From Pegea sp. RAD2-039 (Eukaryota > Chordata > Thaliacea > Salpida > Salpidae): DNA of 64,000 bases. Made by a program: the position numbers and the translations under genes. Shown in pieces: positions 1,747 to 62,859 of the stretch (position 1 is the stretch's first letter; each line of letters starts with the position of its first letter). Under the pieces are notes generated by a model. That model ran no database searches. It had not been told where the DNA came from and saw only the letters and a list, made by a program, of their open reading frames with translations. The stretch lies in assembly GCA_034620365.1 (NCBI GenBank), contig JAQGEQ010000318.1, positions 1 to 64,000 on the forward strand, read 5' to 3'.

Positions 1747-2459
1747 TTTCTTTAAGATTTGAATCCGCAAAAGTTCAACATTTTGCTTAGAAGGAGATAT
1801 TAGTAAGCAAATAGTATTTACTTTGTAAAATTAATTTGTAAAATTTGGAGTAATATATTTAGTTATTTATCACTTTAAACTGTTTATTATATATATTTTC
1901 ATTGGAAGATATTTAATTTTTTAGAATATTATGCTTCATACTAGGCTGTCTACGCTAAATTTTAATTTTTGAATTATATAAGAAGCTTACACTTATTAAA
2001 TAGAAAGCTGAAAACGTATTTAATTATTTTATAAAAAATAGTAACTCAACTTAATACAAAGAATAGTTTGTTTAAAATAACTAACTTTAGATTGATACAG
2101 CTTTCAAAAAATAACAAAATATTCAACAACAGGATTTTAAAAGAATGGAAAATTTAGTAAATAATTTTGTTGTTGAAATTTTAAGGTTTGATTTAAATGG
2201 GTTAAAGATTTAATCTTTAAGGTGAGATGATGTTGGGATTAAGGAACATATTTTGGTATCTAACTGGAAACTTCAACTGTTAAAAAGAAAAATCAACTGT
2301 AAAGAAAGATTTAAAAAATAAGAAATAAAAAAGTACTTTTAATAATAAGTTTAAAAAATCATAAATTACCTTCAATAGATGCCATTGATGATATGCTAAT
2401 TGAAAAATAAAAAGCTATTGAAAAAATTATTGTTTTAAATTGTTATATAAAAGTATCAA
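1747..2459. other. AT-rich intergenic stretch, no gene seen
   Basis: Very AT-rich sequence without a convincing exon, RNA gene or repeat match inside this window. Confidence 0.5.
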
Positions 2460-4486
2460 GAATATATTTTTAAAAAGTATAAGAAAAAGCTATTAGAAAA
2501 TATTTTTGTCAAAAGCAATTATAAAATAAAAAACAAATAAATGTTATATTCTATTTGAATAAATGCATATAAGTTATGATAAAGTTATTTCTAGGAAGTG
2601 ATTTGTATATTTTATATTGTGGTTGGTGACAGTAAAAATCTTTTATGAAAACTTTGGTGGACCCAAATAGATCTGGCAAGACCTTATGTTCAAATGTAGA
2701 GAAAAATCCTGATAAACCGACTTCATCAAAACAAGCTTGCAATGGCAGTTGCCAATCCTGCAATAAAATTTGCTATGGTGAATAGAATCCGGCAATAGAA
2801 TGCTTTAAATGTCTCTCCTGGTTTCATCTTACCTGTAGTGATGTGAGCAAAAAAATTTACGATATTTTTGATAACAACCGGACGAAGCAAATGGGATTTA
2901 CATTTGTAAAATGGGTAACAAGTTTTAATAATTGAAAATACTTTTTATTTTTGAAGATTTGAAAATTGGCATGAATCTAACAAACCAATTCTAAAAAGTA
3001 ATTTGTCTTTAAAGTCTTTAAAGATGAAGAATTCCAAAATTTTTATTGATATTGGCAAGTTTGATTGTTGATTGATTAATAATTATCTGATTTTGAGTTT
3101 AGGAAACACCACTGAAAGTTTGATGAAGTTTTTAAATAGTGATGACTTAACTAGTTTTTAAATTAAACAGATTTGATAAAACCTAAAATCTTAATTAGAA
3201 GTCAGATAAAGTTGGATTTGAAGGATTTAACATTTGCCGAAAAATTTCTAAATTGAAACTTTTGATTTAAGAAACTATCTTTAGTGAAGAGCTTCTAGAA
3301 GCTTTGATTAAAAGTTCAGATTTTTCAAGATCACTGAGACACAAATAGTCATCAATAAGAGGATGTTCTGAAGTTTAATTTAACAAATTTTAAATTTGAG
3401 TTTTCGTGATTAACTCATTTCACAGAATTTACTTCCTCTAGAGCTTTTGTAAAATTTTCTTCAGACTTAGTTGGAAAGTTCCACTTAAACTTGTAATTTG
3501 CTTGAATTTAAGTGATGAGCTGTAGTCATGAATTTTACTTTCTCTGTAATCGTGTCACTTATTAGCTTCAGTTTCATATTCCTACAATTGAGTTTGTAGT
3601 TTGCTTTATATGAGTTTTCAACTTCGATTTTTGTATATAAGATATTTTTCATGTAACAATCGTTTAATGTGTGGTGAAGGTTTGGTGGAAAGGAACTTTT
3701 ATATCAAACTGGACAGAATTTGGATGAAGCAATCAAACCAAACCTTTATTGAGAATTATTAGTTAGAGGTTTCTTTTTAGTTCCTTTTATAGAAGTTAAG
3801 ATATCATCAATAGAGAAATTTACAAATGAAATAGATTGAAAGAAATATCAACTAATTATTACTAATTGCTGAATTTATTGACTGGATATCACAAAAAGAA
3901 ATCACAAGAATGAATATTTCACCAATAGACTTTTCCACTTCAATTTCCTGCCTATCTTTCGTGCTGTTGACTTTTATAATGTCGAATATCTAAGTTTGTT
4001 CGTGCAAATGTGTAACTTACCGTTGAAAACTCAACTATTTTGCAGAAGAGGAAGAAGAAATGACCATGCAGCCAGGGACTATGTGCCAGGGCAGAAGTTA
4101 TGAATATCCAGTTGTTGCCCATGCAGCAGGATTCCACTCTCCACGCTAACAAGGTTATGTAGCGGAACAGATGCATCCGCACTTAGCTGGCGTCGCAGAA
4201 GATGTCAGAACGACACTGAGTACAAAGACGAACTGCCTACGAGGTTCCAACTTCGGATTTAAATTTGGATCTCTTAGAACTCTTGTCATTTTACCAAACT
4301 CACAGGACACAAAAACACGCACAAAAAACTCACTGTAGACCGTAAGGACAGAGAAATTGTCATTTTAGTTTTTTTGTCATTTTACCAAACTCATAGGACC
4401 CTTCTACCCGTATTTTATATAGATGTTTCCTTGTCACTAATATGTGTCCACCTGGGATCAAACCCGAAGCCACTCGCTTTTTAAAA
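2460..4486 (+). mobile_element. repeat copy A: PHD-like finger ORF remnant, interrupted by a 1.4-kb block
   Basis: The left part (2460-2913) matches the start of copy B at 4487-4920 at high identity, and the right part (about 4303-4486) matches copy B at 5210-5370. The plus-strand frame near 2740-2850 keeps a zinc-finger pattern (CNGSCQSCNKI...ECFKC...WFHLTCSD) but has an in-frame TAG, so it is a pseudogene. Cx2C...Cx2C-W-H-x2-C resembles the PHD-type finger found in ORF1 of some CR1-like non-LTR elements; that assignment is inferred. The middle (2914-4303) is foreign to copy B and recurs inverted at 52695-54084. Confidence 0.55.
2914..4303 (+). repeat. 1.4-kb repeat block, inverted partner at 52695-54084
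   Basis: Reads forward here and reverse-complemented at 52695-54084 over nearly its whole length, with scattered substitutions and small gaps. The end near 4040-4260 is richer in G+C and keeps an open frame in the other copy; here the frame (MTMQPGTMCQ...) is broken by a TAA near 4147. Because the partner lies 50 kb away in opposite orientation, the pair could also support intrachromosomal inversion. Confidence 0.75.
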
Positions 4487-5400
4487 TAATATTTTTTTAA
4501 AAGTATAAGAAAATATTGTTGTCAAAAACAATTATAAAAGAAAAAACAAATAAATGTTATATTTTATCTGAATATAAGTTTATTATGAATAAGTGCATAT
4601 AAGATGTGATAAAGTTATTTCTAGGAAGTGATTTGTATATTATATATTGTGGTTGGTGACAGTAAAAATCTTTCATGAAAACTATGGTGGGCCTAAATAG
4701 ATCTGGCAAGACCTTATGTTCAAATGTAGAACCTGGCAAACCGACTTCATCAAAGCAAGCTTGCAATGGCAGTTCCAATTTCCCAATAAAATTTACTCTG
4801 GTGAAGATCCGGCCAAAGAATGCTTTAAATGTCTCATCTGGTTGTATCTCACTTGTAGTGATGTGAGCCAAAAAATGTACGATAAATTTGATAACAACCA
4901 GATGAAGCAAATGGGATTTAAATTATTTTGCATTAAATGTAGAACCATGAACACAACAGCTCCTTCATCTAATTCTAATAAAAACCTCTTATCCGACATC
5001 AGCAAATCTTTATCTGCTGAATTAGCCAAATTTAAATCCAAAATTGGCAAAGATGTTGCCAAGATCGATGAGAAAATTTCTAGTTTGTCTAAGTCAATGG
5101 ACGAACTGGATGCCTCTTCAAAGAAACAAGTCACATGGGCCTCGGTGGTCGGTGATTCCGGTTCCGACAAAAATGCTAACATAGTGCAGCTTCTTGTCAA
5201 GAAGGTCACCGACAAGCACAAAAAACTCACTGTAGACCGTGAGGAGACAAAAATTGTCATTTTACCAAACTCATAGGACCCTTCTACCCAGGTTTTTATC
5301 GACGTTTCCTTGTAACTAATATGTGTCCACCTGGGATCGAACCCAAAACCACTCGCTTTCTAGGTAGGCATGGTAACCGCTTCGCCACACAGATCAATTC
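4487..5400 (+). mobile_element. repeat copy B with ORF1-like frame (PHD-like finger plus coiled coil)
   Basis: The plus-strand frame 4716-5276 (186 codons, ends TAG) holds ECFKC-x-IW-LYLTCSD and a downstream CIKC, a Cys-rich finger close to the PHD pattern with Tyr in place of His. A hydrophilic helical stretch with heptad-like spacing follows (SKSLSAELAKFKSKI, EKISSLSKSMDEL). Finger followed by coiled coil is an arrangement known from ORF1 of CR1-like retroelements. A frameshift upstream puts the first Cys pairs in another frame, so the element is probably defective. No reverse transcriptase follows. Copy B starts directly where copy A ends, so the two form a head-to-tail pair. Confidence 0.5.
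5322..5395 (-). repeat. tRNA-Ser-like sequence (tRNA-derived repeat or tRNA pseudogene)
   Basis: On the minus strand there is an A-box-like TGGCGAAGCGG, an anticodon-loop-like CTAGAAA as in tRNA-Ser(AGA), and a perfect B box GGTTCGATCCC within a pairing T arm (TTGGG/CCCAG). The acceptor and anticodon stems pair poorly, so a working tRNA is unlikely. A shortened copy lies at about 4440-4480, and another B-box sequence at 52640-52705, each beside the same repeat family. A tRNA-derived SINE head is the best reading. Confidence 0.6.
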
Positions 5401-5530
5401 AATACAAATAATAAATGAAAAGAATATACATCTAAAACAACATTTATTTTGCATAAAAAGGCATGACATTTTTCAAATATTAGTTTCTTTGATTTCAACA
5501 ACATATTTTTAAACATGTTTCTACATCAGA

Positions 5531-8500
5531 CTAAGCCAAAGAGATTGGAATTCTATTGTCAATTGGAAGAATATGCTTTGGTGAGTTAGTTGTAAAGTAT
5601 GTTTTGTGTCTGTTATCAATTGCGAGATGATCCTGTGAAAATTGAAAAAAAAGTTTAACTTTTAAAAACATAAAAATAAATAAATAAAATTAAATATTTT
5701 TTAGTAAATTCTAATGATAATTTTATAGTTTAAAACATATTTACACAACTTACAGAATTGTTTATTTTAAGAATTAATTTAAATTAAAAGATTTTTTTTC
5801 TAATTTTGGTGATTGAAAATAAACTTACTGAACGAAAACTGTTTGCTTCTCCAGATGACCTTCTTTGGCTCCTATGATGATAAGGCATCACTAGAAACAA
5901 TTTAGAAAAAAGTTTATCATTTGGTTTATTGAATTATATATAAATATAAAATCGTAGAAATTACTTAAAGATTTTCTTTTTGAATTTGGTTCAGAAATTT
6001 GATGAATCCAATTAAAAGTGTGACGTCTGCTGAAGTTTTCATTAAAATTCTTTCTTTCAGCATTTGCTGGAATTACTTGTCTTTCTTTAAAGATATTTTG
6101 CAAATTAATAAAAGCTTTTATATTATATTATATTATATTATATTATATTATATTATATTATATTATACTACATTATATTACATTATATTACATTACATTA
6201 TATTATATTACATTATATTATATTACATTATATTATATTATATTATATTATATTATATTATATTATATTATATTATATTATATTATATTATATTATATTA
6301 TATTATATTATATTATATTATATTATATTATATTATATATAAACTTACGATTTTTAGTTTTTATAGTTTCCCATTGAGCTGTTTGGGAGCTACTTTCTGG
6401 GTCCGCAATTGTATGCCTTCTAATTGATGAAACTTTGAGAAATTCGTCAGGAATGATCTTAGGATGCTGAACACTCTGCGATCTATATTTCTCTATCAAA
6501 TCAATATAATAAAATAAAATTTAAAAAATTTAGTTTCTTTTACTATTCGTGTTTTTTATTCGTTGGTTATTATTTCTGGAGGCAAATTTTATTTTATTTG
6601 AAGTTGCAATAATGAGATCATCAGTTCTACGTTTGTTGACATCTGCAAAGAAAAATTAATCTCAACTTTAAAAAAGTTTTTAACAAAATTACAGAAATAA
6701 TTCATTTATATTTAGCTTGATGTCAAAGGTTTTTACAATCATCTATTAAAATCACTATAAAATATGTTTTAAGTTAGATCTTTAAATCAACTCAAAAGTA
6801 ATCTTTATCAAACGTTAAAGTGGACCTTGATTGAAAAACTTTAGATTTTTACTGACAGTACTTCCATTTCTAATTCGGAATTTTTTTCTGTCTTGGTTTG
6901 ACTTCCAAAAATTTCCTTTAGCTTCACTAAGATGTCGTATAAAGAAGTTTGGTTCTACATTTGAATTAACAGCACTCTGTCTCAAGTCATAAATACTTTT
7001 GTAAGTTTGTAACTGAAACATTAAACTTATAAATAGATGTTTTAAAATAAAAGAAAACTTTGATTTACTCCATCGTTTAATTCTTCTAAATACAACTTCA
7101 GAAGTTGCTTTGTTTCATTGATAATTATTGATTCACTTTCTGCTAATGTTTTATGGATCTATTAAAACAAAACGGCTGTAAAAGAAAGAATTCCCAACAA
7201 ATACTCGTACCAATTTACGAGCCTTCTTTGTGGTGTTTTCTGAGCCAAGGTTATTGACGATTTTACTAATTTTCTGCAACAATAACAACAAGTAAGCTTA
7301 TAAACTACCTTTTGCTTTTTACCAACTTTACTAGCTGCTTTTTTATACAAATTGCTTAAAAGAATCTCATTTGCGTTGTGTATCATATGACTTTTAACTC
7401 CAATATCATCTTCTGTTTCATCAACAAATGTTGTTGTGTTTTTCATTGTTGTCAATAACTATAAACTCAGCAACTTAAAATTGATTCTATTTCTGTTGAA
7501 ATCATTCTAACCCTTTTCCAAGAATCAGAAAGTTGCCTTTCTAGTTGCTTTTCTAAAACTTCTGGTTTCATACCATTAAGCATATTCATTCCTATTTCTA
7601 AAGCTAAATCGTGGTTCTGTTTGAAGAAAACAAACTTGCCTCAAAATTTAGTCATTATGATTGAATCAACAAAACAACTTTCTATTTAATAATTAAAGTT
7701 GATTTTAAATAAAAATTTTTACAAAAGTTTAAATTAATTCTACATCAGTTACTTTTTCTTTATTGTTCGAGTCGTTTGTGTCTTGATCTTTATTAGTAAT
7801 AGGGCTGAAAGATGACTTATTTTGTCCAGTTGCTACAAGTTCATCATTATAACTTTGAGGTTTGTATGATTGTAAAGCTTTTGAAGCTGTTAAAATTTGA
7901 CTTTTTGTAAGAACAGATAAATCTCAAAGACAATTTTCAATTGAAACCGTTTCATATAAGTACTTAGGATTTGTTAAAATTTATTTTTGAGATTTGAAAG
8001 TTAATATGTTACATCGTGAGTATTTTCTCTTGTGGAATGTTTTAACTTATCAAAGAAGAGTCAATCAACTATTACCTCTCCTACCGCTACTCTTACGGAC
8101 TTCCTTCTGAGCTGGAATACAATGAGTATCAATCGCATCTTCATCAATTCCTTTCTTCATATGAAGACATCATTTTAAATAAATTAAATTCTCACTAATC
8201 GAATCTTACCTTTACTTCGTTTAATGATGGATTAATTGCATCTCTCTCTGAGTCTTCTTCACTTGCTACATCTGATGTTAATTTTGTATATTTTTCTGTA
8301 ATTATCTTCTTTTCAATGTTATCTTTTTCTGATCTATTTTTGAAATTCTTCAAATATTTGTAAGCTTCTTTTGTGTCTTTTGATGTTCCTGTATCTTGTA
8401 TTTTATTCAAATTTGTTTTCACAAACGGTTTTTCATCATTTTCTAAAGACTTATTGATTTTTGAATGCTGAACAGTAGACTTATTTTGAAGGGAGTCAGT

Positions 8501-11500
8501 AAAATTTGTGTTAATTGAATCTTTCAACTTGATTTTATGTGAATCTGAAAATTTTTCTTCTTTTTCTGATTCAATTTTAGATAAAAATAGCTGATGATAA
8601 AAAATAGAAAAATTTCTGGAAAAATTCTGACGATTCAATAAAATAAACTTACTGTATTTTGAGCAGCTAATTTTTCATTCAATTTTTCAATCTGTAATTT
8701 AAATTAATAAATTTGTATCTAGAAAATGATTCAGAAAATTTCTACCTCTTTTTGAAGTTTTATATTTTCTTCGTTCAGATCTTCAATTTGATTGGTTAAT
8801 ATATCAATAACAGAAGTTCTACTGGAATCTAACTTATCTAACTGAATAGATACGTGACTGTTAACTTTGTTGTCTATTTCACTTTCTACGAAATTGTCTT
8901 TTTCACTTTCTACCCAAATGTCTTTTTCACTTTCTACGAAAATGTCTTTTTCACTTTTGACGAAAATGTCTTTTTCACTTTCTACCAAATTGTCTTTTTC
9001 ACTTTTGACGAAATTGTCTTTTTCACTTTCTACCAAATTGTCTTTTTCACTTTCTACCAAAATGCCTTTTTTACTTTCTACGAAAATGTCTTTTTCACTT
9101 TTGACGAAATTGCCTTTTTCACTTTCTACCAAAATGTCTTTTTCACTTTCTACCAAATTGTCTTTTTTACTTTCTACGAAATTGTCTTTTTCACTTTTGA
9201 CGAAATTGTCTTTTTCACTTTCTACCAAAATGTCTTTTTCACTTTCTACCAAATTGTCTTTTTCACTTTTGACGAAATTGTCTTTTTCACTTTCTACCAA
9301 AATTTCTTTTTCAATTTCTACCAAATTGTCTTTTTCAATTTCTACCAAATTGTCTTTTTCACTTTCTACAAATTTGTCTTTTTCTGACGATAAGCTCGAG
9401 TCTCTTAATTTCTTCGTTTTACTGAAAGATCATAAATTTACAAAATATTAAAAAATCAACAAAATTTCAAACAAGAAATTTTACTTTTCTCTTTCAACTG
9501 CATTCTCTTCATGTCTTTCTGCTATCAAATCTTCCTTTGATTGATCAGTTTGAGTTAAAACACTTTTATTCATCATCTTGATCTTTGTTTCATCATTTAT
9601 TTTCTGCAACAAATTATTAAGTCTTTTAATCTCCTCTAACTTCTTATCTTCATCTTGATCCTTAAAATCAATAACTTCCTTGTAACCAGAAGCAATTTTT
9701 TCAAGAGCGCTGTAATTCTGAGACAAAAACTTTTAAGATCAAATTTTTTGTTCAAATCTCTCACATGCTGGAGCTGGTTGTAAGATTTTTGCTTCTCAGC
9801 TAGCTGTTGTAGTGTGTTGAGAAGATCATGATCTGATTCATTGTTTCGTTCTTTCTTATTTCCTGACTGAAGAACAAAAAATTAAAGTCTTTTTGACAAC
9901 AACACTTTCAAAAAGTTCAAACCTTTTTAATTTTATTTTTTAAATTTTTATTTTTTTCTTTTATAATTTGGTTTTTCAGTTCAACACATTCCTTCAAACA
10001 AAATATTTTTCAACATCAATTAACAACTGATTTTCAAACAAACTTTTTCTAAACTAATAATCGCTTTATCTTTTGTTGCAATTCCAGAAGATACTCGATT
10101 ATAATTTTCTTTCAATTTTAAAATGACTTCGTCGCTTTCTTCTTTCGCCTGCATCCAAATATTAATATTTTAAACTTCAACCAAAGCTTACTTTATCTTT
10201 TTCCATAATGATAAAATACAACTTCCCAATCTCTTCATCTTTTGAAGCAATTCGCGCGATAAATTCTTCCAGATTTTTCTTTAAATCATCAACTTGATTG
10301 TTTTTTTCGTCTCGCGCTCTTTGCACTAAACTGTAAACCTCACCAGCAGCATATCGAAAATAATTCATCTTTTCGTCTTTAACACTTTCATTTTCATTTT
10401 CTTCATGTTTTTTCATCTCTGATTTATAAAATAGACAAAGATTAGAAATTAAACCTTAAATCAAAACCTTCTCTTTCAATTCTTGATTTGCTTAACACTC
10501 GAGAGTATTCTTTCCTCAATTCTTTCATATCGTGTTCGATATTAATAAGAGGGACTCCTCTTAACTTATTTATATTCATTTTTGTTTTCATCAGAGCAAC
10601 TTTACGAATGAAGTCATCGATATTAGTGAGTTCCTGACTGTCAACACCTTTTGTTAATTGTTATTCGCTTGTGATGGCAACTTACGAAAAACTTTGGTTT
10701 CGTTGAATTATAAATTGTGAATCAAAACGTGAATGATTCATCTGAAAAAGTTCAAATTAGTTTAACTTTCTGTAGCTTCAATTAAATTCAATTTTTTATT
10801 CAAATTAATCAAATAGTTTAAAAAATGAAATTAAAAAAATTGTTTTTGAAATATTAATTCATGCTAATTAAAAAATAATCAAATAATAAATATACATAAC
10901 TCAGAAAGTTTTATTTTAAAATTGAAAAAAATCGTTTTTAAATCTTAATATTCAAAAGTAGTTTTGAAAATCTTGAATCTCAAATTTTACAAAACTTTAA
11001 AAAGCAAATTTTTAGGCAGATATTTAAAACATCTAGTAAGTCAGTTACACAATTTTAACTGAAAGAATACTTTAAAAATACAAAAACTCAACTATAGATT
11101 GATTTTCTAAGACGTTGCTACTTTCATCAATCCATTTAGTTAAAAAAGCTGTAAGGTCTTTTGGTTCATCTAAATCATCATAAGAAGAAGAAGCTCTTAT
11201 TCCAGCAGCTCGTACGTATGTTCGAAATTTATTTATTAAAAGAGCGACATTAAATTTCAACTGTAGAAAAATAGTTTGTGAAAAATATCAGATTTTGAAA
11301 CACTAACCATTTGATTATCGACTTGTAAAAGATTCATTTCAACTTTTTTAACTAAATCTTCATCTGTAAGAGGAACTTGATTTTTATTCCCATCTTCATA
11401 ATCAGTAACCGCCTTTAAAAATCATTTAAACTTATATTAACACCAACATTCAATCGTCAACTAACCTTATTGATTCTATCTTTAATTTCTTTCACATTTT

Positions 11501-11937: not shown

Positions 11938-12897
11938 ATATAAGTGAATTGGCAGCTCAGAATCCAGCCCACAAAGTCTGAACTTATAACTTTTTCCCAT
12001 AAACCAGCTGTAAATTGCTTCAACCAATACTCCATCAATAGATTTATTATTCAACGAGTATCTTCGGTCCTAGACCTTGGCATTACTCTATCATCTGACT
12101 TTAAATGGCGCAATTATGTTTCCAAAATCTTTGGAAAATCAATCAACTTTGTCTTATTAAAAAGACCTTTATTTCTAAGAACCCATGCTTTTTTATAAAT
12201 CTTTTCAAATTGTACTTACGTCCAATTCTTAAATACAATGTCAGTGCATGGATGCCATATCAAGTTAGTGATATCAAAAAAATCGAATCTGTTCAGGCCA
12301 CATTTACAAGATTAGTATGTAGGAAACTTAATATTAAATATGATAGTTATAAACATCGTCTCAATCTCTTCAATTTAGATACTTTGGAAATTCTACGAAT
12401 TAAATACCACTTAACTTTTTTTTTTAAAATTATCCACAATTTAATTGACCTTCAGTTTGATGATTTCTTTTCCATTAGTCCTTCCCTCAAGTTATATCAA
12501 CTCAGACGACACACATTACACCTTAATAAGCCTATATCACCTAGTACATTGGTCAGAACAAATTTTTTCTCATACCGTACAATTAGTACATGGAACCAGC
12601 TGCCATCAGACATTGTCATGTCGAAGTCGCTCGCATTGTTCAAGCAGAAGTTGAAATGTTATACTATTGCCAACATTGTCATTTCTAAACTGTGATTTTT
12701 TTCCTTTCTTATATTATTATCATTCCATGTAATTGTTCACTGTTATATGCTTTGAGGACTTATGAATAAGAATGTGTTGTATCTATTACTTTCTATATTT
12801 CTAACTTAATAGATGTTATTTGTGAGAACGTGTGTCAGCGAGAGGTGCTCTTTTCAGGCACCTTCCTTCGCATTTTTTGAAATAAATAAATAAATTA
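11938..12897 (+). mobile_element. CR1/jockey-like non-LTR retrotransposon, 3' fragment
   Basis: Holds the C-terminal part of a reverse-transcriptase polyprotein on the plus strand. The first frame (11944-12198) reads NWQLRIQPTKSEL; after a frameshift near 12150-12200 the second frame (to TGA at 12693) reads MPYQVSDIKKIESVQA and ends in NIVISKL. A 3' UTR of about 200 bp follows, with a GAGGTGC...GGCACC hairpin and an (AAAT)n tail. It lies between the coiled-coil gene and the PDIA5-like gene. It is 5' truncated and dead. Four related pieces in the window share the same 3' end. Confidence 0.85.
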
Positions 12898-13092: not shown

Positions 13093-16000
13093 TTAAAGTT
13101 CTTCTTTCGAATATTTTCGAAGATTTTCTTCAACCACTGAAACAACTTCATCAGCAGAAGATAGTTCCAAATCAGAAGAAAACTTCCCATTCACAAAATA
13201 CTTGAATGTCGGATGCTTACGAATAGAAAATTTGTAGCATAATACTGAAAATGAAAATCAGCCAATCAGAAGTCGATAAAAAGAAGGTTTTTGTTTTTGT
13301 AACTAACCGCCTTGCTCGGGTTGGCGATAACAATCGACTGCTCCTAATGCCACTTCCGGTTGTAGATGACGTAATCTAAGCGACGCGTCGCGATAATAAT
13401 CACATGCTTGTCTAGAGGTTTTCGAGTACAGGGAATGGAACATAATGATCACGTGATGCTGAAATTTCAATAAATTTGCATAAAATCGTTAAATAAATGA
13501 CTCACGTGATCATTTAGGAATTGATTGAAAGATGAATTGCTGAGATGGATGACTGATCCTGAAAGAGTCGGATCAAGATCTTGCCAAGATGTAGGTTTGA
13601 CTCTTTGTGAAAGTTTTTTAGAAGGTCTGAAGATGAGATGGAATTAATAAAAAGTCTTGTGAGTGATGAAGTGAGGACTTTTTGAGAAATTTCATCAAAT
13701 GATCTGATGTCCATTTTGCTTTATATTCAAATTTCTTTTTTCCATTTCTGAAATAATTTCGATTTTATTTATTTTGAAACACTTCCAGCTGATAATTTAA
13801 AATGTTTCTCGTCTTCAGTAGCAGAGAAAATTGCTCCAGTAAAAGCTGAAGGTTTCTTCCTCTTAAAGATTTGAAGCGCTTCCATATCGCTCTGCAAAGT
13901 CTTGCATCTCTTCTCAGTCTTTCAGTTTTATCATTTCAATGATTTATGAATGAAACATAAAAAGTCGAGTTTGAAAAACATCAGAATTTCCAAACTAATT
14001 GAGATACAAATTTGTTGCTTACTTAAAGTAGAGGAAAGTTGGGAAACTGTTGATGTTGAATTGATCAGTTAACTTTCTATTTTCATCAGAATTCACAGCA
14101 GCAATTTGAACTTTTAGTTTCTCATCGTGAGATAATTGAGCGGCTCTTTCAAGTTCTGGTTTGATATCAGAGAAACAAATCTTGCAAACTGATAAAAAAG
14201 TAGATTAGAAAATAAACAACCAATCACAACGCTTCTACGTTTGATATAAAAGAAGACGAGGACATGTTTATTCGTCTTCATGAATTGATTAAATGTTTCT
14301 GTTTGTAATTTAGTGATCTTTGAGTTCTCTTCATCTTCCCATTTCAAAGATTCGGACTCAACTGAAGGTGGCTCCTGATAAGAAGGTCTGAAATTCAAGA
14401 AGACGGATTACCCTTAAAGATCAGAGATTGATTGAAGATGAAGTTATGTCTTACTCGCTCAAATAATTTGCAAAGTCATGTTTGCTTCTCGCCCCAAAAT
14501 ATTGGAATTTCATTTCACTGTCTTTAAAGTACCAAAAAGTTGGGTACCCCTGAAATAGAAGTTTGAATCATCAATAAAACTTCATTTAACTTCCACCAAC
14601 TTTTATTTTAAACTTCTTTAACGCGTCGCGATGTTTTACAGCATCAAAAACCGCGAGTTTCACGTCAGGAAGTTCTTCTGCAATCTCAGCAGCAGTTTCA
14701 AAAAATGCTTCTTTTGAAGCTTTACAAGCTCCACACCCTAAAAAACAGATCTTACTGCTCCTGTTTGAGTTGTTACAACTTCTTACAAGGAGCATAAAAC
14801 ATGACAAAAGCTTCTGGTGTTGCTTCTAAGAAGTCTTCAAAGTTATCTGGTGATAAAGAAGCAACAGTGTCAGGTTTTGTATCCAAAATCTCATCAGTTT
14901 CTTCATCAACTTCTTCATTGTTTTCTTTCCTAAGATTTTTGTGAAATTTCATTTTAAAGATCAACTTCATCTAGACGAACCTCTGCAGAAAATCCACAAG
15001 ACTATTTGTGTCTCTTTTATCTTTATAGTTTTCAACAACTTTTCCATCTCTGTAATCATCTTTATCAACTTAACTTTAATTTAACGAATTTTTAAACTTA
15101 CTTAAAATAGATTAAAGTTGGGTAACCTTTGACCTGATATTTATCGGTAATCTTCTCAGCGTCTGCAACGTCAAGCGCTGCTAGCTTTGAAAGCATCTTC
15201 CTTTCCTTTAATATATCACCAACAGCAATAAAAGTTGGTTTAAGCTGTTGACAATGTCCACACCCTAAAACATTTGAAAGTTTTATTTAATAATTTGTTA
15301 ACAATTTAGAAGATATTTACATTTAGCAAAGAACATCACGAGTAAATGTTGATTGTTTTTAATAAATTGGTAGAAAGTGGACTTTGACAGAATTGTCACT
15401 TCACTATTTTTCCATTCGTCTTTTGGTTTCTCAATGAACTTAGGCCTTGACAGAAATTTATTATAAGTTGAACGCTGAGAACGACCAAGTGATATATATT
15501 TATAATAATTATAAATTAATGTTTGAAGATTTATTTGCAGATAGATAAAGTTTAGATCTTAAACACAAATTCACTTTTTCATAAACTTCACGAACGATTT
15601 GGAGTTCCTTTTACCATGATACTCATAAATAAGTCGATTATTTCGAAAGTAAGCGATAAAAGGAACGTCTTCGACTTTGTATCTATTTTTCAGAATTAAA
15701 GCTGAAATAGAAAAGTGACTTTTTTGTCTGAAAATATTCTGAAGTAAAAATTCACCTTTTTCAACATTAATAGCTGCCATGGTTACACTCGCTTTTACAG
15801 AAGCTAATCTGCGAGCCGCTTTCTCGTAAGCTTTACGTAATTTGAAGCAGGCTTTCGAAGCTGGAAATAATTTGCAAATATCAAGTTGTAAATAAATTAA
15901 AAACTTGATGAGCTTGGAAATAATATTTGCTAACTGTTCTGATATTGTGAGTATTATTGACTGAAAGGTTTATGAGGGTGTTAAATAAATCAAACTTTTA

Positions 16001-19000
16001 GTGATTGTGATTAATAAGAAATATAAAAGATAAATATTTAAGTTGTTGAAAAAGTTAGAAAATTCAATTTAAGATTTCAATTTTTCAAAAATTAAATAAA
16101 ATTTTTTTTCAAACAAAAAATTTGAAACTTTTATTTATAAATTTACTTAGAGAATAGAAGAAGACTAGCATCTCTTCTTGATCTGAAGCAAAATGATCAA
16201 AGTTAGAGTCAGTAAGATGCTCAACATCACTAGCTGATTCTTCTGTTTCCCAAAGAGCAAATCTCTTTTTTTCTTTTGGTTTTTTCGGACTGAAAAATAA
16301 AAAAAGAAAAATCTCTCAGCAAATTTTAGTTTTAATTTCAAACTAACTTTTCAATGAAATGTAAAATATCAGGAACAGCTCGTTGCCCTTTATATTCAAA
16401 CTGTTTTTCACCTTCAACAAACCAAAACAAACTTGGAACTCCTAAATTATATGTCCACATTCGATAAATATCATTTTCATACTTGTCGCCATTAATCACA
16501 GCCAATTTAACAAGTTTCTAGAACAAGTTGATTTATTATTTAATTTCAAATTCTTCTAACTAACTTTATCTAATTCTATTTGTTTTGCGCAATCAGCAAA
16601 AGGTTTCCTTGCTTGTTTACAGATTGGACAATTTGTGTTGTAAATCATCACAAGTACTTTGTGATTATCTTTCATGAATTCTCTCCAAGTCTTATCTTTA
16701 CAATTCATCAAAAAGTTGTAAATTTTTGAGGCTTACAACAAACCAGTAAGATGGTACAACGAAGAGCTATTCCTAATACTTCTCCAGAAACTGTTTTCTT
16801 CTCGAAGCTTATAAACTTCATCTCGTTTAGAATGGATAAATTTACAATAATCATCAGTCTACAATTTGATGTTTTACTTTAAACGTTTTCTTGTCTTTTT
16901 ACAGAAATTTTATCATTAAATTTTGAGATTACTTTCTACCAGTCATCATGAAGTTAGCTGCTATCAGCTTTCAATTTTTTCAAATTATATTTGAATAAGA
17001 AACAATTTTTATGAGCTATCCTCTACAAAATTGTTTCAGTCACTAAACAAGACTTGACTAATAAAACTCTTTCAAGATTTGAATTTTATTTTTATTAGAA
17101 TTTGAAGAAGAAATGGAACTAATTTTTATTGTACTAATTGTATTATAAAGAAGATAAAAACACAAATAATATTAATAAAATAATTGATTTAAAAGATATA
17201 CATAAGCAGAGATGTTCTAATTCAAAAGCTTCAACACTTGATGAGAAAATAATAAAAGAAGTTTGCTTCATTAGAAAGAAAGGCACTTTATCAACTAACA
17301 GTGCTTCATATGCAAGTAAAATGTATAAATCTAATTGTAGCTGTTATTTCTACATCTTTTATAACTCTGATTTAGGAGTTGTTCGCTTGCTATCCATAAA
17401 CGAAACGAAGTCAGGTTCCTAATAGCACAAAATCAGTTAATTTGTTGCAAAAATCAACCAATCAGCAACAAGCACTAAACACGTGACTACTAAATATTCA
17501 TTCATAAAACTAAATTTACAAACCGTTCGACCAGATTCATATTTAGCGGCGTTTTTACCATAAGACATATAATAGAAGGTCGGATAACCTTTGACCTCTA
17601 GACTATCGCAGCTGTTTCTGTTTTTAGTGCAATCAATAGCAGCAAACGCGACCTAAAAACCAAACCCAGATGAAATAAGAACTTGAAACTCATCGAGAAA
17701 CCTTTTTGTCATCAGCAAATCTCGCTGCTGCTTCCTGATACTCCGGTTTCGCTTTCTTGCAGTGTCCGCACCCTGGAAGTAGAAGTTAGGATCAAGATCA
17801 GGATCAGGATTGAACTCACATGGAGCGTAGAACATCACTAGAGAATGCTTCTTCTTCTTCAGTGAAGATTGGAAGGAAGAGTCATCTAGATGAATGACGT
17901 CACTTTCAGTTTCATCCCAAGATTTTTCAGGTGGCGGAGGAGGTGTGGGACTTTTAAAAGATCAAATATTAAATCTAGCGGTTCATATTTTCACAACGAT
18001 TCAAACAACTTGTTGATATATTCAATAATTCCATCAGAAGTTCGTTTCATAGCAGCACCGACGTTATATTTCATCTCACCATCTTCAAAATAGATTAAAG
18101 TTGGATACCCAGTGACCTAGATCACATAAAACGGATCAGTATCATGAAAAAGACCCAAAAAATCCAACCTTATACTCAGATGCTAATGCTGGAAACTTTG
18201 TAGCGTCTAGAGCGGCTAATTTTGCTTCAGATTCGGATTCTTTCAGTTGAGTCGCCGCCTTTTCCCATTCAGGTTTCAGATTCTTACAATGTCCACACCC
18301 TAGATAGAAGAATCAAATCCTGATCTTCAGATACAACTGATCCTCATCTTACAAGGAGCATAAAAGAAGAGAAGGACTTGTTTGTTGTCAGCGATAAATG
18401 AATCGAAGTTGCCATCTTCTAGATGGTGGACATCGTTTTCAGAGTCTGACCAGGCCACCTCTGGTTCCTTTGGTTTAGGAGGCTGAGGACTTTTATAAAA
18501 ATTAAATTTCAAATCTTGAAATAATTTTGATTTCTTACTCTTCTAGAAAACCTTTCAAATCATCTTTTGAATGTCCTGCTGAATATTCAAACTTCTTTTT
18601 ACCTTTCCTAAAAACACAACAAATTTAATCCACAAAAAAACCATCGATAAAAATAAATACTCGAAATAAATGGTCTTCGGAAATCCAGTAACATTAAAAC
18701 GACCTCTAACTTTATGAGCGTCTTGATTTGTGTCAGCATCATAACCAGCTAAAATCTAAACAAAAAAAACTTCAGATCATTTCATAAGATCGTCTCAACC
18801 AACCATCTGCCCCTTAACTTCAGATGCCACCTCAGCAAAGACTGGTTTAAACCGTTTACAGTGTCCACACCCTGTCAATATCTCAGGTTTTTAAAGAGTC
18901 ATAAATAGAAGAAACTAACATGGGGCATAGAACATGATTAAAGTTGGTTTGTTCTTCTTTAAAACGTTGTTTAGTTGTTTTTCAGTCGATAAATGAACTA

Positions 19001-20089
19001 CATCAACAGCATCCTCTTCTTCTGACCACGGACCATCTGATTTGGGGTCCTTGAGGAAAGAGTAGAGAGACTGGAAAGAAGAAAATTATTTTAAAAGATT
19101 ATTTAAATATAGAGAATAAGATGAAGATGCCAAAATTTAAATCATAATTTCCAAAAGTTTTGATAAAAGATGTTTATTTATTAATTAAATAAAATAATTA
19201 ATTAATATTAATTAATAATTATTCTATAGATTTTTATATTCATTTTATCCATTTATATAAATAAATAACATATATATAAATAATATATAAATAATATATA
19301 TATATTGACAAGTTATTTTTAGAATTTATTAAATGGAAATTGTATCAAGTACCAGAACAGAGAACTTTCTTTCATATAAGGAACTGAATTCTCCATCTTT
19401 AAAATGAGCCAAATCAAAACCAACATTTCCATATTTATATTTCTTACAAATCTAAAGAAATAAAATAATTTCAAATTTCAATAAACTTCTAAAATCATTG
19501 AAATTATTTTTCACTTTTTTTCCTTCTTTTAAATTACAATTAATCCAAGAAATTGTTCCAATTCCTTTAGCTTTCACAGCTACTTCACCAAGTAACTTAA
19601 ACTGCTTATTAGCAACTTTTTCTAAGAAACAAAACAAACAATTTCTATAAAAATTAATAAAATTAACTTTTACAACTACTTATAATATAATTTAAATAAA
19701 ATATTTATATTATTAGGTAAATATGATATAAAAAACTTTCTATTTTTTACCATCTTTTGCAAATAATGTTAATATATTTGTTTTTGTACGAAGAAGTTTT
19801 TTAAAAGATTTCAAATCATCAATTTTCTGAATTAGATTAAAACCTTCAATTACTTTCTTGGCTTCAATTTCTGAGTAAAAGACCTAAAAATAAATCAAAA
19901 TACAAAATTCAAGATATTGATGATATTAGGCAAGACACTTTCAAAAAAAATAGTCAAAAAATAGTTTTCTAATTGGAATAATTATTTATATAAACTTATA
20001 AACTAATTAGAAATAAAAAATAAAAAGTTTAAAAGTTATTTTACTTGTAAAAACAGAACAGATAAAATTAAAATCCGAAAACTTGGCAT
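13093..20089 (-). CDS. PDIA5: PDIA5/PDIR-family ER protein with nine thioredoxin-fold domains
   Basis: There are 32 exons: 20045-20089, 19751-19883, 19515-19621, 19353-19451, 18920-19070, 18804-18871, 18661-18755, 18539-18607, 18353-18489, 18169-18299, 17995-18116, 17820-17950, 17702-17772, 17524-17652, 16744-16858, 16565-16695, 16348-16517, 16147-16289, 15756-15860, 15575-15701, 15321-15445, 15102-15264, 14981-15049, 14787-14929, 14601-14737, 14455-14549, 14239-14387, 14023-14188, 13679-13747, 13506-13626, 13308-13458, 13093-13244. All phases match; 1,272 aa. An ER signal peptide (MPSFRILILSVLFLQ) leads into a PDIR-type b-like domain (residues 16-128; KSFKKLLRTKTNIL). Nine thioredoxin-like domains follow, with active sites CGHC 180-183, CGHC 303-306, CGHC 431-434, CPIC 557-560, SKAC 684-687 (first Cys lost), CGHC 803-806, CGAC 928-931, CKIC 1055-1058, and a ninth with only one Cys (1191). 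The protein ends in KEEL, an ER-retrieval signal also used by PDIA5. Family role: disulfide formation and isomerisation in the ER lumen. Human PDIA5 has three such domains, so this is a large expansion. Confidence 0.88.
17138..17422 (+). other. open frame antisense within a PDIA5-like intron
   Basis: A 94-codon frame on the plus strand inside the 665-base intron 16859-17523. It contains KSNCSCYFYIFYNSDLG, a Cys-containing segment loosely like the zinc-binding N-terminal part of MULE/FLYWCH-type proteins. The first codons are simple AT-rich sequence. It may be a transposase remnant or chance; I cannot decide. Confidence 0.2.
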
Positions 20090-43749: not shown

Positions 43750-44600
43750 ATTTTATTTATTTATTGTAATAAACGCGACGGAGGGTGCCTGAAGAGAGCA
43801 CCTCTCGCTAACACACATTCTCACAAATAACATCTATTAAGTTAGAAATATAAAAAGTAATAGATACAACACATTCTTATTCATAAGTCCTCAAAGCATA
43901 TAACAGTGAACAATTACATGGAATGATAATAATATAAGAAAGGAAAAAAAATCACAGTTTAGAAATGACATTGTTGGCAATATTATAACGGTTCAACTTC
44001 TTCTTGAACAACACGAGCGACTTCGACATGACAATGTCTGATGGCAGCTGATTCCATGCAGCAATTGTGCGGTATGAGAAAAAATTTGTTCTGACCAATG
44101 TACTAGGTGATATAGGCTTATTAAGGTGTAATGTGTGTCGTCTGAGCTGATATAACTTGAGGGAAGGACTAATGAAAAAGAAATCATCGAACTGAATGTC
44201 AATTAAATTGTGGATAATTTTAAAAATAAGAATTAAGTCGTAATTAATCCGTCGGATTTCCAAAGTATCTAAATTGAAGAAGCTGAGACGATGTTTATAA
44301 CTATCATATTTAATATTAAGTTTCCTGTATACTAATCTTGTAAGTGTGGCCTGAACAGATTCGATTTTTTTGATATCACCAACTTGATATGGCATCCATG
44401 CACTAACATTATATTCAAGAATTGGACGTACGTACAATTTGAAGAGTAATGTGTGTCGTCTGAGCTGATGTAGCTTGAGTGAAGGACTAATAGAAAAGAA
44501 ATCATCAAACTGAAGGTCAATTAAATTGTGGATAATTTTAAAAATAAGAATTAAATCGTAATTAATCCGTCGAATTTTTTTGGTATCACCGACTTAATCA
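43750..44600 (-). mobile_element. non-LTR retrotransposon 3' fragment, rearranged
   Basis: 43750-44437 carries the tail, UTR and C-terminal coding part (NVISKL stop; MPYQVGDIKKIES). At about 44447 the sequence jumps back to a second copy of an internal segment (44447-44590, matching 44120-44260), giving a head-to-tail join of two truncated pieces. It marks the border of the tandem duplication. Confidence 0.8.
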
Positions 44601-47690: not shown

Positions 47691-50400
47691 CGGAGGGTGC
47701 CTGAACAGAGCACCTCTCGCTAACACACATTCTCACAAATAACATCTATTAAGTCAAAAATAAAGAAAGCAAAAGATGTAACACATGGCATTTAAGTAGT
47801 CCTAAAAATATATAACAGTGAACAATTACATGGAATGATAATAATATAAAAAAGGAAAAAATCACAGTTTAGAAATGGCAATGTTGGCAATATAATAACG
47901 GTTCAACTTCTTTTTGAACAACACGAGCGACTTCGACATGGCAATGTCTGATGGCAGCTGATTCCAAGTACTAATTGTACGGTATGAGAAAAAATTTGTT
48001 CTGACCAATGTACCAGGTGATATGGGCTTATTAAGATGTAATGTGTGTCGTCTGAGCTGATATAGCTTGAGTGAAGGACTAATAGAAAAGAAATCATCAA
48101 ACTGAAGGTCAATTAAACTGTGAATAATTTTAAAAATAAGAATTAAGTCGTGTTTAATTCGTCGGATTTCAAAAATATCTAAATTGAAGAAGCTGAGACG
48201 ATGTTTATAACTATCATATTTAATGTTAAGTTTCCTACATACTAATCTTGTAAGTGTGGCCTGAACAGATTCGATTTTTTTGATATCACTAACTTGATAT
48301 GGCATCCATGCACTGACATTGTATTCAGGAATTGGACGAAAGTACAATTTGAAAAGATTGATAAAAAAGCATGGGTCCTTAGAATTAAAGGTCTTTATAA
48401 TAAGAAAGACAAAGTTGATTGATTTTGTAAAGATTTTGGAAACATAATTGCGCCATTTAAAGTCAGATGATAGAGTAATGCCAAAGTCTAGGGCCGAAGA
48501 TACTCGTTGAATAATAAATCTATTGATGGGGTATTGGTTCAAGAAATTTACAGCTGGTTTACGAGAAAAAGCTATAAGTTCAGTCTTAGTGGGCTGGATT
48601 GTGAGCTGCCAATTCGTAGACTAGTTTTCTACCGTGTGTAGTACAGTTTGAAGTTTTGAAGGATTACAAGATAATAGCTGATATCATCTGCATACACAAA
48701 CACACTGACATCATCTACTGCTACTAATCTTCTGATGAGGTCTTCGATAAAAATTAAAAAGAGAAGGGGACCCAGAACAGAACCCTAAGGAACACCACTA
48801 GTGATTTGACTAGAAGTAGAAAAACTTAAACTACTACACGAGTTTGTTGGGTTCTACCTGATAGGTAATCTTCAATCCACTGTAGGATAAAGCTGTTGAT
48901 TTTTAAGTTTTTCAATACAGTAACGAGCTTAGTGTGTGGGACAGAATCAAATGTTTTAGCAGAATCGAGGTATATGATGTCACAGGGAGTATTACTTTCA
49001 TAATGGTCTGTAAGCTCATTAAGAAAAGTGAGATGTTGAGTCAGGGAAGATCTCCGTTTCACAAAGCCATGCTGGACATCAGATATTAGATGGTGCTCCA
49101 TCGAATGACTGGTCATATGATTGTGAATGATATGCTCTTGAGTTCTGCAGATAACTTAAGTCAGCGAAACTGGTCTGTAGTTAAGTGGGGTGTTTCTGGG
49201 ACCCTTTTTATGAAATGGAATAATAATGGCATTCTTCCAAATTTGTGGAACTCTTCCTCGCCTCAGAGTGATGTTAAAGAAAAGCGATAAAGGTAGTGAT
49301 AAAGATGAAGTATTTTTTCTTAAAAACAAAGCTGGGATCTGATCTGGAGTATTGGAAACTGATGATTTTAAAGAAGAAATAACCTTAGATACCATATTGA
49401 CCGTTATGCCAAGATATACCATCTCAGAGACATTTATATGAATGTCGGAGTAGGAGAGAGAAGGAGTATTGCCATCATCAGTTATAAAAACGCTATTAAA
49501 TTGATTGTTTAGCAATTCAGCTTTATTCTCTGGTTCCATCACAAGCTGGTCGCTGTTATCAATTAGGGGAGGTATTTGAGATCTCGCCTTAAGCTTGCGA
49601 TTTATGAATCCAAAAAACGTTTTCTTGCTAGGAAAAGATAAAACTGCACTTTCTCTTCCCAAATAGAAATTAGAAATAGATTTCTTGTAAACTATACAAA
49701 GATCTTTGAACATAGATTTGATAGAAGGGTCTGTTTAAGTTTGTTTTTATAGGAGGTTTTTTAAATTTTGTAATTTCTTTAAATTTTTGGGCAAATGTGG
49801 TTTTTTGTTGGCTCTATAAAAAGGTATGAATTTTTCGATTGACTTTTTAACGATGTTAGTAAACCTTGAGTAAATAGTATTGATGTCTTCGGAAGAGTTG
49901 AAAACAGAAATCCAGTCAACATCTGATAGAAACTTGTTAATACCATCATAATTTCCACAGTAAAAATTCCATTTGCTTGAAGTTTTAACGTTCATAAAAA
50001 AAGTTTGGTGGAGCTTGAATTCAATCATATTGTGATCGCATGTCAGAGCAAAAGGTTCTTTTTGATAAACGTAGGTAATATTCTGAGGTTTTGATGTGAT
50101 AAGAAGATCCAAAGTATTACCACTAACTTGGATCGGAAAAGTAACCACCTGATATAGATTATTGGCATTGAGGAAGCTTACAAAGAAATGACTGAATTAA
50201 GATTATCCTAATCCAAGTTAAACGATTTTCCACTAAATGCTAAATTCGGGTTATTCTAATCAATTTTACTAAAATTAAAATCCCCCAAAATATATAACTC
50301 AGGACACACAACACTCCTCAGAGCCTTCAATAAAGCCTTAACAGTAACCTCATCATTAGTTTTAGAGGGTGGTAGATAGGTACATTTAAAACGAGAAAGT
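47671..50400 (-). mobile_element. CR1/jockey-like non-LTR retrotransposon, longest copy (5' truncated)
   Basis: On the minus strand, 5' to 3': endonuclease C-terminal part (about 50390-49950; LGDFNFSKID, DLLITSKPQN, CDHNMIEF); linker; reverse transcriptase (49713-48600) with IIPFHKKG, LNYRPVSLT, HGFVKRRS, GSVLGPLLFLIF and VYADDI, the YxDD catalytic motif; the C-terminal domain (48542-47862, ends ISKL); UTR and tail. Stops and frameshifts break it at about 50260, 50210, 49740, 49155-49116, 48825 and 48600, so it is not active. APE-type endonuclease plus RT without LTRs places it in the CR1/jockey group; the exact clade needs a tree. ORF1 is absent here; the PHD-finger ORF at 4.5-5.3 kb may be from a related element. 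Confidence 0.9.
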
Positions 50401-59913: not shown

Positions 59914-62859
59914 TTACAAGTCACTGATGCTGGGAGTTTTGGGGATTCTGGGTTTGTTCGGAAGATAAGACTGCTGATTGGTTGTTAGAAACTTCTTCCA
60001 AACAGTCTGAAAAAGAAGAAGAAAGATTAGATGAAGATCTGGTAAAGATCAGGTGAAGATCAGGTGATGAAGATCTGGTGATGAAGATCTCATAAATACA
60101 TGCAAATGAGGAAATAAACAATTTGGTGAAAAATGGTGTTTTCATGCAAAAAGTGAAAGTGAACATAAAAGCATTCCACAGGCAACAAGTCAGCGGACCA
60201 ACTGGTCAGAGGACCAACGGACCAGAGGACCAATAGGTCATAGGACAAACGGACCAACAGGCAACAGGCACATACTCACTTTTGGAGTTATACAAACGTA
60301 TCGCCTGCAAATGCTGACTGCTAAAAAATAAAAACATTTGAAAAAAAAGGAATTAGAAATGAAATTGAATTTGTTGTTAGTTGAAGATTTAGAAGAAGAT
60401 GAAGAAGACATCAAAAGAAGATTTTAACAAGATCTCGGAAGATGACAAAGACATTCCTTAAAAGATCAACTTCTGATACTCACACTGCAAACATTCTGGA
60501 CATTTGCTCGTTCCTTCTCATCCAGATGCTGATCCTGGGATTCATTCGAAGCAGATTTGAGGGTCTTTGGAGCGACGGAAGATTTCAGGAGCTGAAAGAA
60601 GATTCATTGATGCAATTAAACAGTTGTTTGTAAATACAATCGAAAAACAAACAGAAAATTCTTCTTGTTGTCGATTTATTAATAAAAATGTTGGAAAAAA
60701 AACCAAAAAAACAGATGACGTCATTCTAGTGACTCAATCAGTGTGTGGATAACAGCGTCACGCTCCAGTGAGCACGCCGAAAGTAGATTAGCGAGTCATC
60801 TTCGGCTTCTCGCGGGTTTTGTTCACAATTCAGAAATCTTACGTCAATCATAAACAAAACAGCGGTGATGACGTCACGCTCGACTGCACACCAGCGAGCG
60901 GTGTAGTCACTCATGCGTGACTCGCTGTCGGTGGTGGATTTCACGCTTCAGTGATTACGTGATTGGAGTTTTTTGAGAAAATTTTTTTTTGGGAAAAAAT
61001 TAAGAAAAGTTCGATAGTTGAAGAAGATGAAGATTTCGGAAGATTTGGAAGAGAAAGTTGAATTATGCAAATTAGATTGAAGTAACAATTGACAAGAGAA
61101 AGTGAAAGTTCGATTTTTACAACATTGAAAAGATTTTTTGTAATTGAATTGAAGTTCTAATCAAGTTACTTCTTTCAGTTTTCTACAAGATGCTTTCATG
61201 TAAATAAATCATTATTTGAAAGGAATGGACCACCAGCTACTTTTATTCAATAAACAAAAGATTTATTTCGAAATTGTAACCATCAGTAGATGAGATGAGA
61301 AAAAGTTACAAAAACCGCTAAACTTTCTAAAGTTTTGAGAATTATTTAATGGTTTTATGATGGTTTATGATGGTTTCTTTTCTCATAAAACATGATGCCA
61401 GTTGAAAAAACAAAAGTTATTTCGTAAAACTTTTGTAAAGTACTTGTGATGTACTCGAAAGCAAGCAATCGTTATTTGTTAGAAAATTACTCAAACAACA
61501 TTTCAAATAAATCAATCATAAAGTTGTATCATCAAAAAAAGTTGAAAAACTTTAGAGGAATTGGAAGAAAATGTTTAAAAAGTAAAAAGAAAGGTTATTG
61601 ATTTTAGAGATATATTTTTATCGTGATAAATATTTGCCAAAAAAGATGAAGACACATTTTCTATTGATCTTCAACTTCTGATAATTAATTTCAAAATTTC
61701 ATGAAAAGTTAAAAAAAATGTAAATTAATTGATGGACTTTCAATTAGGACCAGTGACCAAGGACTTACAGTTTTTGGTGAAGAGTGGACAACTTTTGATA
61801 GACGTGGTTCACAAGTAGAAGGTGGAAAAACTGCAACTAAAAAATATTGATTTTATGAAAGAATTGATGACGAATAAGATCTTACCAGGTTGTTGTGTTT
61901 GAAGATCAGTTGGTGTAGTAGTAGGAACAGAAGATGAAGATGAAGAAGAAGAACGTTTCGAAGAGTCTGGATTCGCTTGAACAATTTTTATTCTTCCTTT
62001 TGACTCTTCTTCTAAATGTCGGACTTTATGTTCAAGATATCTTATATATCTTGTACCTTGAGCAGGATCTGCAAAATTTACGATCAAAACTGGATTAGGT
62101 GATGTTGAGAGATTACCAGCGGAGTACAGATTCGAGTCCTTGATAGTTGGACGACTTGAGGACCGGTGGTCAGGACTGCTACTTCCAGTGGTCGACCCAT
62201 TACTACTTCCATCACCAGAATCTCTTGTACAAGACACAGATAAATGAGATGAAGTCGGAAGATTTGATTCAAAACTTCCAGTTGTTTCATGATCGAAACA
62301 AATCTCCTTTAAACTCTTGTTCTCATGAATAAGAGCAATCTGTCTTTGTTCTAAATCTTTAATCTTATTCTGATAACTTGCAACCTCTTTTTGGAGGTAG
62401 CTAGTTGCATATCTTCCAAACATCTGCCACTCACGAGCAACTTTATTTGCCTTGCTTCGATCATCATCAAGAAAGCAACAAAGACCTTTTAGCTCCTCCT
62501 TCTCAAAGAGCAACATCTTCTTTTCAAGAGTTAATCTCTGATTAAACTCATCAAGTTTTCTTATTTTCAATCCATTATGCTGAAAGTTTAAAATTAGCTG
62601 GTGACACTAAAAAGACGTTGCTTACTTGGATGCATTGGTTAGTATCTTTAATAATATGATTCCGCTCAGCTAAAATCTTCTTCATTTCAACCTCCATGAA
62701 TCTTAAACGCTTCAGAAGATTCTCTGTTCCCTCTTTTCTCAACTCCTCATCAGTTGGGAGTTTGAAGATCAGAGATTCATTCCAGCCTGGAGTTGTCATG
62801 GAGGAATTTAAGGAAGATCTGCTGGATGAAGAGCTTGAATGTCCACTGGATTTGTGCAT
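59914..62859 (-). CDS. CCDC85: CCDC85-family coiled-coil protein (C. elegans PICC-1 type)
   Basis: Exons: 62626-62859, 61886-62579, 61769-61830, 60484-60591, 59914-60006; 396 aa, in frame. The start is ATG at 62859, preceded by an acceptor-like TTCTCTTTAG about 21 bases upstream. The hallmark block spans about residues 90-170 (KKMLLFEKEELKGLCCFLDDD, AREWQMFGRYATSYLQKEV, ENKSLKEIC), a coiled coil with the family's LCCFLDDDR motif. A Ser-rich linker follows, then a second helix (TRYIRYLEHKVRHLEEE) and a C-terminal segment (DEKERANVQNVCSTVWKKF) that matches the family's EKEKAIVREMCNVVWRKL. Family role: CCDC85 proteins sit at cell-cell junctions and bind p120-catenin relatives; the nematode member recruits a RhoGAP to contacts. 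An upstream coding exon cannot be excluded, since the frame is open back to the acceptor. Confidence 0.9.
60030..60270. repeat. short imperfect tandem repeats in a CCDC85 intron
   Basis: 60030-60095 repeats a GATCAGGTGAAGATCTGG-like unit. 60185-60265 repeats a GGACCAACGGACC-like unit of about 9-10 bases. Both lie in the last intron. Confidence 0.7.
60716..60960. promoter_or_regulatory. G+C-rich patch with CRE-like TGACGTCA sites in a CCDC85 intron
   Basis: TGACGTCA at 60716-60723 and 60869-60876 and TTACGTCA at 60839-60846, within about 250 bases that are much richer in G+C and CpG than the flanks. TGACTCA/TGACTCG-like AP-1 half sites are also present (60730, 60918). This could be an intronic enhancer or an alternative promoter for the 3' exons. 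No coding exon fits here. Confidence 0.4.

Follow-up and report, generated by a model that had tools for sequence, protein, structure and literature searches.

The PDIA5-related locus and its domains

We analysed a stretch of 64,000 nucleotides from Pegea sp. RAD2-039 (contig JAQGEQ010000318.1, positions 1 to 64,000; hereafter the window), in which the minus strand from 20089 to 13093 encodes a series of thioredoxin-like (Trx) domains related to the endoplasmic reticulum (ER) protein PDIA5, or PDIR. When the locus was rebuilt from splice sites and reading frames, we obtained a chain of 32 exons with GT-AG borders at all 31 introns. Its reading frame runs for 1,271 codons, followed by a stop, from a signal peptide to KEEL. 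A PF00085 search of the spliced product gave nine stretches, three of them in the first part of the chain and the other six in its second part, and all nine of these catalytic-type (a-type) domains, each cut out singly, scored above the curated cut-off of 23.5 bits (Table 1). Together with a non-catalytic b domain the long chain thus has ten Trx folds, and its CxxC motifs lie at residues 180, 303, 430, 556, 802, 927 and 1054. A search of the organism's own genome found no extra copy or allele of the locus besides the locus itself; the four further matches span about 44-129 bases at query positions 662-1048 and are mostly AT-rich intron.

The N-terminal part carries the features by which PDIA5 is recognised. 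In a PDB search, residues 32-152 aligned to the solved b domain of human PDIA5 (4i6x, E 8.7e-25), while no Pfam family matched this domain at E 0.01. The b domain contains a cysteine pair, Cys 88 and Cys 97, which lies nine residues apart, as does the structural pair described for the human protein, Cys85-Cys94 (PMC3629029), the two being compared by spacing alone. The best 9-residue mean hydropathy of the signal peptide is 3.38. Retention-like C-termini are present at two ends of the locus, KSEL for a short form described below and KEEL for the long chain, and ER retention in Pegea is predicted from them. Judged by its b domain, cysteine pair, three a domains following the b domain, and ER signals, the locus is PDIA5-related.

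An initial annotation of this DNA, made from the sequence alone, had proposed a PDIA5-like protein enlarged from three to nine thioredoxin-fold domains. Its PDIA5 assignment holds, as do the 32 in-frame exons from signal peptide to KEEL and the seven CxxC sites, and the PF00085 search that it suggested returned the nine stretches given above. Its length of 1,272 residues is one too many, however, and its nine domains are correct as a count of a-type domains but omit the b domain. It had also described two domains with one cysteine each. Both domains, d6 and d10, do lack CxxC, but d10 has further cysteines elsewhere.

Table 1. Features of the PDIA5-related locus, in the order of transcription
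Feature	Position	Strand	Basis
Exon 1: start codon and signal peptide (MPSFRILILSVLFLQ...)	20045..20089	-	reading frame, hydropathy
Exons 2-4: PDIA5-type non-catalytic b domain	19353..19883	-	4i6x match, Cys spacing
Exons 5-8: end of b and catalytic domain a1 (WCGHC)	18539..19070	-	PF00085 81.8 bits
Exons 9-11: catalytic domain a2 (WCGHC)	17998..18489	-	PF00085 95.4 bits
Exons 12-14: catalytic domain a3 (WCGHC)	17524..17950	-	PF00085 98.5 bits
Putative short-form last exon, phase 0, KSEL and stop	17359..17418	-	acceptor 4.4 bits, frame best of three
Three AATAAA, candidate poly(A) signals	17085..17130 (first bases 17130, 17096, 17090)	-	number within chance
Exon A, putative long-form joining exon, phase 0: last helix, linker, first strand	16744..16858	-	acceptor -1.4 bits
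Exons 16-17: domain d5 (CPIC)	16348..16695	-	PF00085 33.4 bits
Exons 18-20: domain d6 (SKAC, one active-site Cys)	15575..16289	-	PF00085 49.4 bits
Exons 21-23: domain d7 (WCGHC)	14981..15445	-	PF00085 86.2 bits
Exons 24-26: domain d8 (WCGAC)	14455..14929	-	PF00085 71.8 bits
Exons 27-29: domain d9 (CKIC)	13679..14387	-	PF00085 66.3 bits
Exons 30-32: domain d10 (without CxxC), end YSKEEL and stop	13093..13626	-	PF00085 27.4 bits

The KSEL exon and two candidate endings

Between a3 and d5 we identified a further exon, in phase 0 and in frame after a3, that reads EPDFVSFMDSKRTTPKSEL followed by a stop. Exons 1-14 joined to this exon encode a complete b-a1-a2-a3 protein of 514 residues, with three PF00085 stretches that each contain CxxC, which is the PDIA5 layout. 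The donor of exon 14 (phase 0, 4.0 bits) is compatible with both endings. As a reference for acceptor strength we used the 29 uncontested acceptors of the locus (median 6.0 bits, minimum 0.8 bits), and the acceptor of the KSEL exon falls between that minimum and that median. When codon usage was scored without stop codons, the modelled frame of the KSEL exon reached 0.82 against 0.32 and 0.25 for the other two frames, with a table whose training included the exon itself; with a table trained without it the exon scored 0.52 per codon, compared with a median of 0.54 for the training-set exons themselves.

We also scanned both strands of the window for any AG followed by 6-60 phase-0 codons that end in a retention-like tetrapeptide. 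Six of the 6,866 AG sites were positive; two of these belong to the KSEL exon, three to the KEEL end and one lies elsewhere. Only position 17418 also has an acceptor that reaches 4.3 bits, and this threshold was chosen just under the KSEL exon's own score. Because the KSEL exon lies in frame between a3 and d5, the join from a3 to d5 is a choice and is not forced. The initial annotation was right that a chain of nine a-type domains is encoded in frame, but this is just one reading of the locus, and the complete PDIA5 ending in KSEL within the same span had been overlooked. It had named transcripts with internal stops or 5' ends between the third and ninth domains as a sign against a single chain; the stop of the KSEL exon comes near to this.

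We favour the reading that the locus is a single PDIA5 gene with competing last exons, giving either a short protein that ends in KSEL or a long one that ends in KEEL, to which we assign a probability of roughly 0.57 on the sequence evidence. In the short form, exons 1-14 would be spliced to the proximal exon and yield an ER-retained PDIA5 of ordinary layout, the mRNA ending within the 500-bp gap that follows. In the long form splicing would bypass the KSEL exon and connect the phase-0 donor of exon 14 with the weak distal exon, exon A, so that the protein would gain six a-type domains, four with CxxC and two without, and the KEEL end. To judge by splice-site strength, with a strong proximal and a weak distal acceptor, splicing would yield the short form by default. 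Open readings, matching phases, domains and ER signals are observed for both forms, from which we infer the two mRNAs. Both proteins would be expected to take part in thiol-disulfide exchange in the ER, the long form perhaps as a multi-site oxidoreductase in which the domains without CxxC bind rather than catalyse.

A second gene of the PDI family, on another contig of the same genome, may offer a parallel. This gene (L001, C23:93500-101500, positions 5904-6968), which we take to be PDIA1- or PDIA4-like, has two phase-0 alternative last exons, chosen by eye, after ...PYYANELQ. One ends in KEEL (6454-6660, acceptor 4.0, AATAAA 73 nt downstream) and the other in KDEL (6891-6968, acceptor 8.4, AATAAA 216 and 313 nt downstream). 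Because this gene too has two in-frame last exons, switching of the last exon might be a general device in Pegea. We tentatively suggest that a regulated switch would allow the PDIA5 gene to make an ER oxidoreductase of either three or seven sites with different tails, and that the long form may date far back in animal evolution and be common to Pegea and Hydra, although we consider this wider proposal doubtful. If both forms are made, splicing would determine how many redox sites each PDIA5 chain has, and the gene would offer a direct way to test what the extra a domains add.

Exon A, the six-domain block and the alternative readings

The block from d5 to d10, exon A included, comprises 18 exons and 776 codons without a stop. 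Four of its domains contain CxxC (CPIC, CGHC, CGAC and CKIC). In thioredoxins a proline in a GYPT-type motif stands opposite the active site, and reading by eye we found it in all six block domains. When codon usage was scored with a table trained on exons 1-14 and the KSEL exon, the modelled frame was the best of three in 18/18 exons, a count inflated by stops in the other frames, and in 13/18 once stop codons were excluded. A domain tree of 12 rows, made up of the nine a-type domains of the window and three Trx domains that are each encoded by a single exon in other parts of the genome, separated the window and outside sets but left seven of nine inner branches open. In this tree a3 and d10 were joined weakly (81/77), a grouping which suggests that the block may have arisen when the 3' part of PDIA5 was copied in tandem and which is compatible with either one gene or two.

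Read in its modelled frame (TDDYCKFI...SLYHLT), exon A completes a Trx domain with the final helix and continues through a linker into the first strand of d5. The tryptophan of this linker recurs in seven of the eight other linkers in an alignment of domain boundaries. We scored it on a linker hidden Markov model (HMM) built from those eight other boundaries of the same locus. Exon A with the end of a3 reached 37.7 bits, which none of 300 residue shuffles attained (median 15.1, maximum 28.4), while the other open frame of exon A scored 13.9 bits, no better than exon 16 alone (14.6 bits). With exon 14 as the upstream partner the score was 37.4 bits, compared with 30.8-32.0 bits for the six other exons that end in phase 0 and 30.3 bits with no partner. 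These scores show that exon A, in its modelled frame, calls for a Trx domain before it, without proving which one; the nearest Trx domain upstream is a3. The first 16 residues of exon A resemble the start of the KSEL exon, with 8 of 5000 shuffles as good. The alternative that exon A was copied from exon 5, the end of the b domain, was considered and rejected for the poorer match (140/5000 at the best of three registers).

Several observations weigh against a single gene with two endings. The acceptors of exon A and of exon 16 (0.3 bits) both fall under all 29 uncontested acceptors, and the intron from exon 14 to exon A measures 665 bp, compared with 47-286 bp for the other 30 introns. By codon usage exon A is neutral, its modelled frame scoring 0.05 against 0.02 and 0.16 with stops left out. 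The linker HMM was trained on boundaries from this very locus, which biases it, and its score rises with any genuine Trx-domain end. At the level of DNA the similarity between exon A and the KSEL exon is not significant (142/2000 codon shuffles). We had also considered three AATAAA motifs that lie 228-268 nt 3' of the KSEL stop as poly(A) support for the short form. These were dropped and carry no weight, because the AT-rich gap yields such a number by chance (1.4 expected, and at least three in 290/2000 shuffles).

Some of these observations would fit two adjacent genes, namely a complete PDIA5 (20089-17359) followed by a tandem partial duplicate with six a-type domains. The duplicate would have its own promoter or be a trans-spliced cistron, and its signal peptide and b domain would be lost or would lie in an unrecognised first exon. 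The first gene would be complete, with its own stop and retention tail; the acceptor of exon A is weak for cis-splicing from exon 14, and its modelled frame is not favoured by codon usage. An ATG 4 nt past this acceptor opens the other frame of exon A with a hydrophobic stretch, as noted by eye and unscored, and the weak grouping of d10 with a3 is what a tandem copy ending in its own a3 would give. However, a beginning of its own for the block was looked for and rejected. When we scanned the 500-bp gap for single exons running from an ATG to a phase-0 donor, we found no convincing start and just two candidates, each poor in donor or hydropathy: a short one with a donor of 3.0 bits and a hydropathy of 1.19, and one with a donor of -1.6 bits and a hydropathy of 2.56, where the signal peptide of exon 1 has 3.38. 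The three minus-strand frames of the gap held no trace of a b domain (score 23, compared with a shuffled mean of 27.6), and on the linker HMM nothing is gained from the alternative frame of exon A. A protein that ends in KEEL without a signal peptide also makes little sense. We regard two genes as unlikely, but as the main rival to the favoured reading.

We considered two further explanations. If only the long protein with nine a-type domains were made, the KSEL exon would be an unused relic or a chance reading. The in-frame chain of 32 exons and the precedent of Hydra (see below) agree with this, but the exon has a normal acceptor, a coding-like frame and a retention-like tail, a combination with such an acceptor found at one of 6,866 AG sites, which makes this explanation improbable. 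Alternatively, the six-domain block could be a decaying duplicate that has lost translation, and here the weak joining acceptors and the low PF00085 scores of d5 and d10, the lowest of the nine, speak for decay. Against this stand 18 exons with neither a stop nor a frame break, GT-AG at every intron and a modelled frame that is best in most exons even with stops left out, and we consider decay very improbable. The locus also illustrates how a complete and ordinary gene end may go unnoticed inside a long gene model that looks plausible.

Related proteins and other features

Human PDIA5 has 519 residues (PMC3500226) and three catalytic domains with the sites CSMC, CGHC and CPHC, as given in PMC3500226 and PMC3629029. 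The Pegea short form is similar in its signal peptide, its b domain with a cysteine spacing of nine, its three a-type domains, its KxEL end and its length, and differs in that all three of its sites are CGHC. The initial annotation had contrasted the nine domains with known PDIA5 proteins of one b-like and three catalytic domains in about 520 residues. This contrast was drawn too sharply, as some PDIR orthologs are reported to have extra C-terminal catalytic domains, giving four in Aedes aegypti (XP_001659136) and eight in Hydra magnipapillata (XP_002159276; PMC3629029). Like these, the Pegea long form would have a PDIR b domain followed by additional C-terminal catalytic domains; more than three a domains are encoded in frame with b, but would be joined via the weak acceptor of exon A. 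It would differ in its total of nine a-type domains, of which two lack CxxC, and in the KSEL last exon that intervenes, the Hydra and Aedes proteins being known to us by description only. By this domain layout the nine-domain form would be a further member of a known but little-studied class of extended PDIA5 proteins, to which the locus points, and the two-ended arrangement is the new part. A PDIA5 gene that can end in either of two retention signals, after a canonical or after an extended chain, was not found in the open-access literature that we searched.

Other ER proteins also carry many Trx domains in a single chain. ERdj5/DNAJC10 is described with five Trx domains and four CxxC sites (PMC3500226); unlike the Pegea locus it includes a J domain and is without the PDIR b domain, and its PDB matches to both parts of the locus were weaker than those of TXNDC5. 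The latter (TXNDC5/ERp46) shares the tandem a domains and provides the best PDB match of both parts (8eky), but it lacks the PDIR b domain. Elsewhere in the genome, a separate gene on the minus strand (L002, C374:12500-19500, about 2150-5540) has approximately five Trx domains by eye and is presumably TXNDC5-like. Three of its domains contain an exon stretch that is pairwise identical at 162-164 of 165 bases, which by this near-identity is very recent tandem copying or gene conversion.

The initial annotation had suggested that the enlarged protein might act on secreted clients such as cuticle or eggshell proteins, an idea for which this analysis provides no support. Neither Chitin_bind_4, a family of arthropod cuticle, nor the nematode-rich TTR-52 family had a match in the Pegea genome, a weak test in that prokaryote control genomes were also without a match; the result speaks weakly against an arthropod or a nematode. 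SL1 RNA, COX1 and the TTAGGC telomere repeat likewise had no match in the genome. These too are weak negatives, as for SL1 the prokaryote controls had none either and 50 of 41,002 candidates were scored.

In the remainder of the window, reading frames at 12105-12695, 43952-44593, 47862-48620 and 49156-50196 share similar C-terminal peptides, and one of them lies just downstream of the KEEL end. We take these to be related pieces of reverse transcriptase from LINE-type retrotransposons. On the minus strand, the frame at 8731-9429 contains approximately 20 near-identical eight-residue repeats (LVESEKDN / FVKSEKDI) and represents either a repeat protein or a translated tandem repeat. Coiled-coil reading frames at 61809-62967 presumably resemble proteins of the CCDC85 family. 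Outside the window, another region of the same genome (L019, C27:2500-7500) contains an apparently complete 18S rRNA gene at about 1760-3550.

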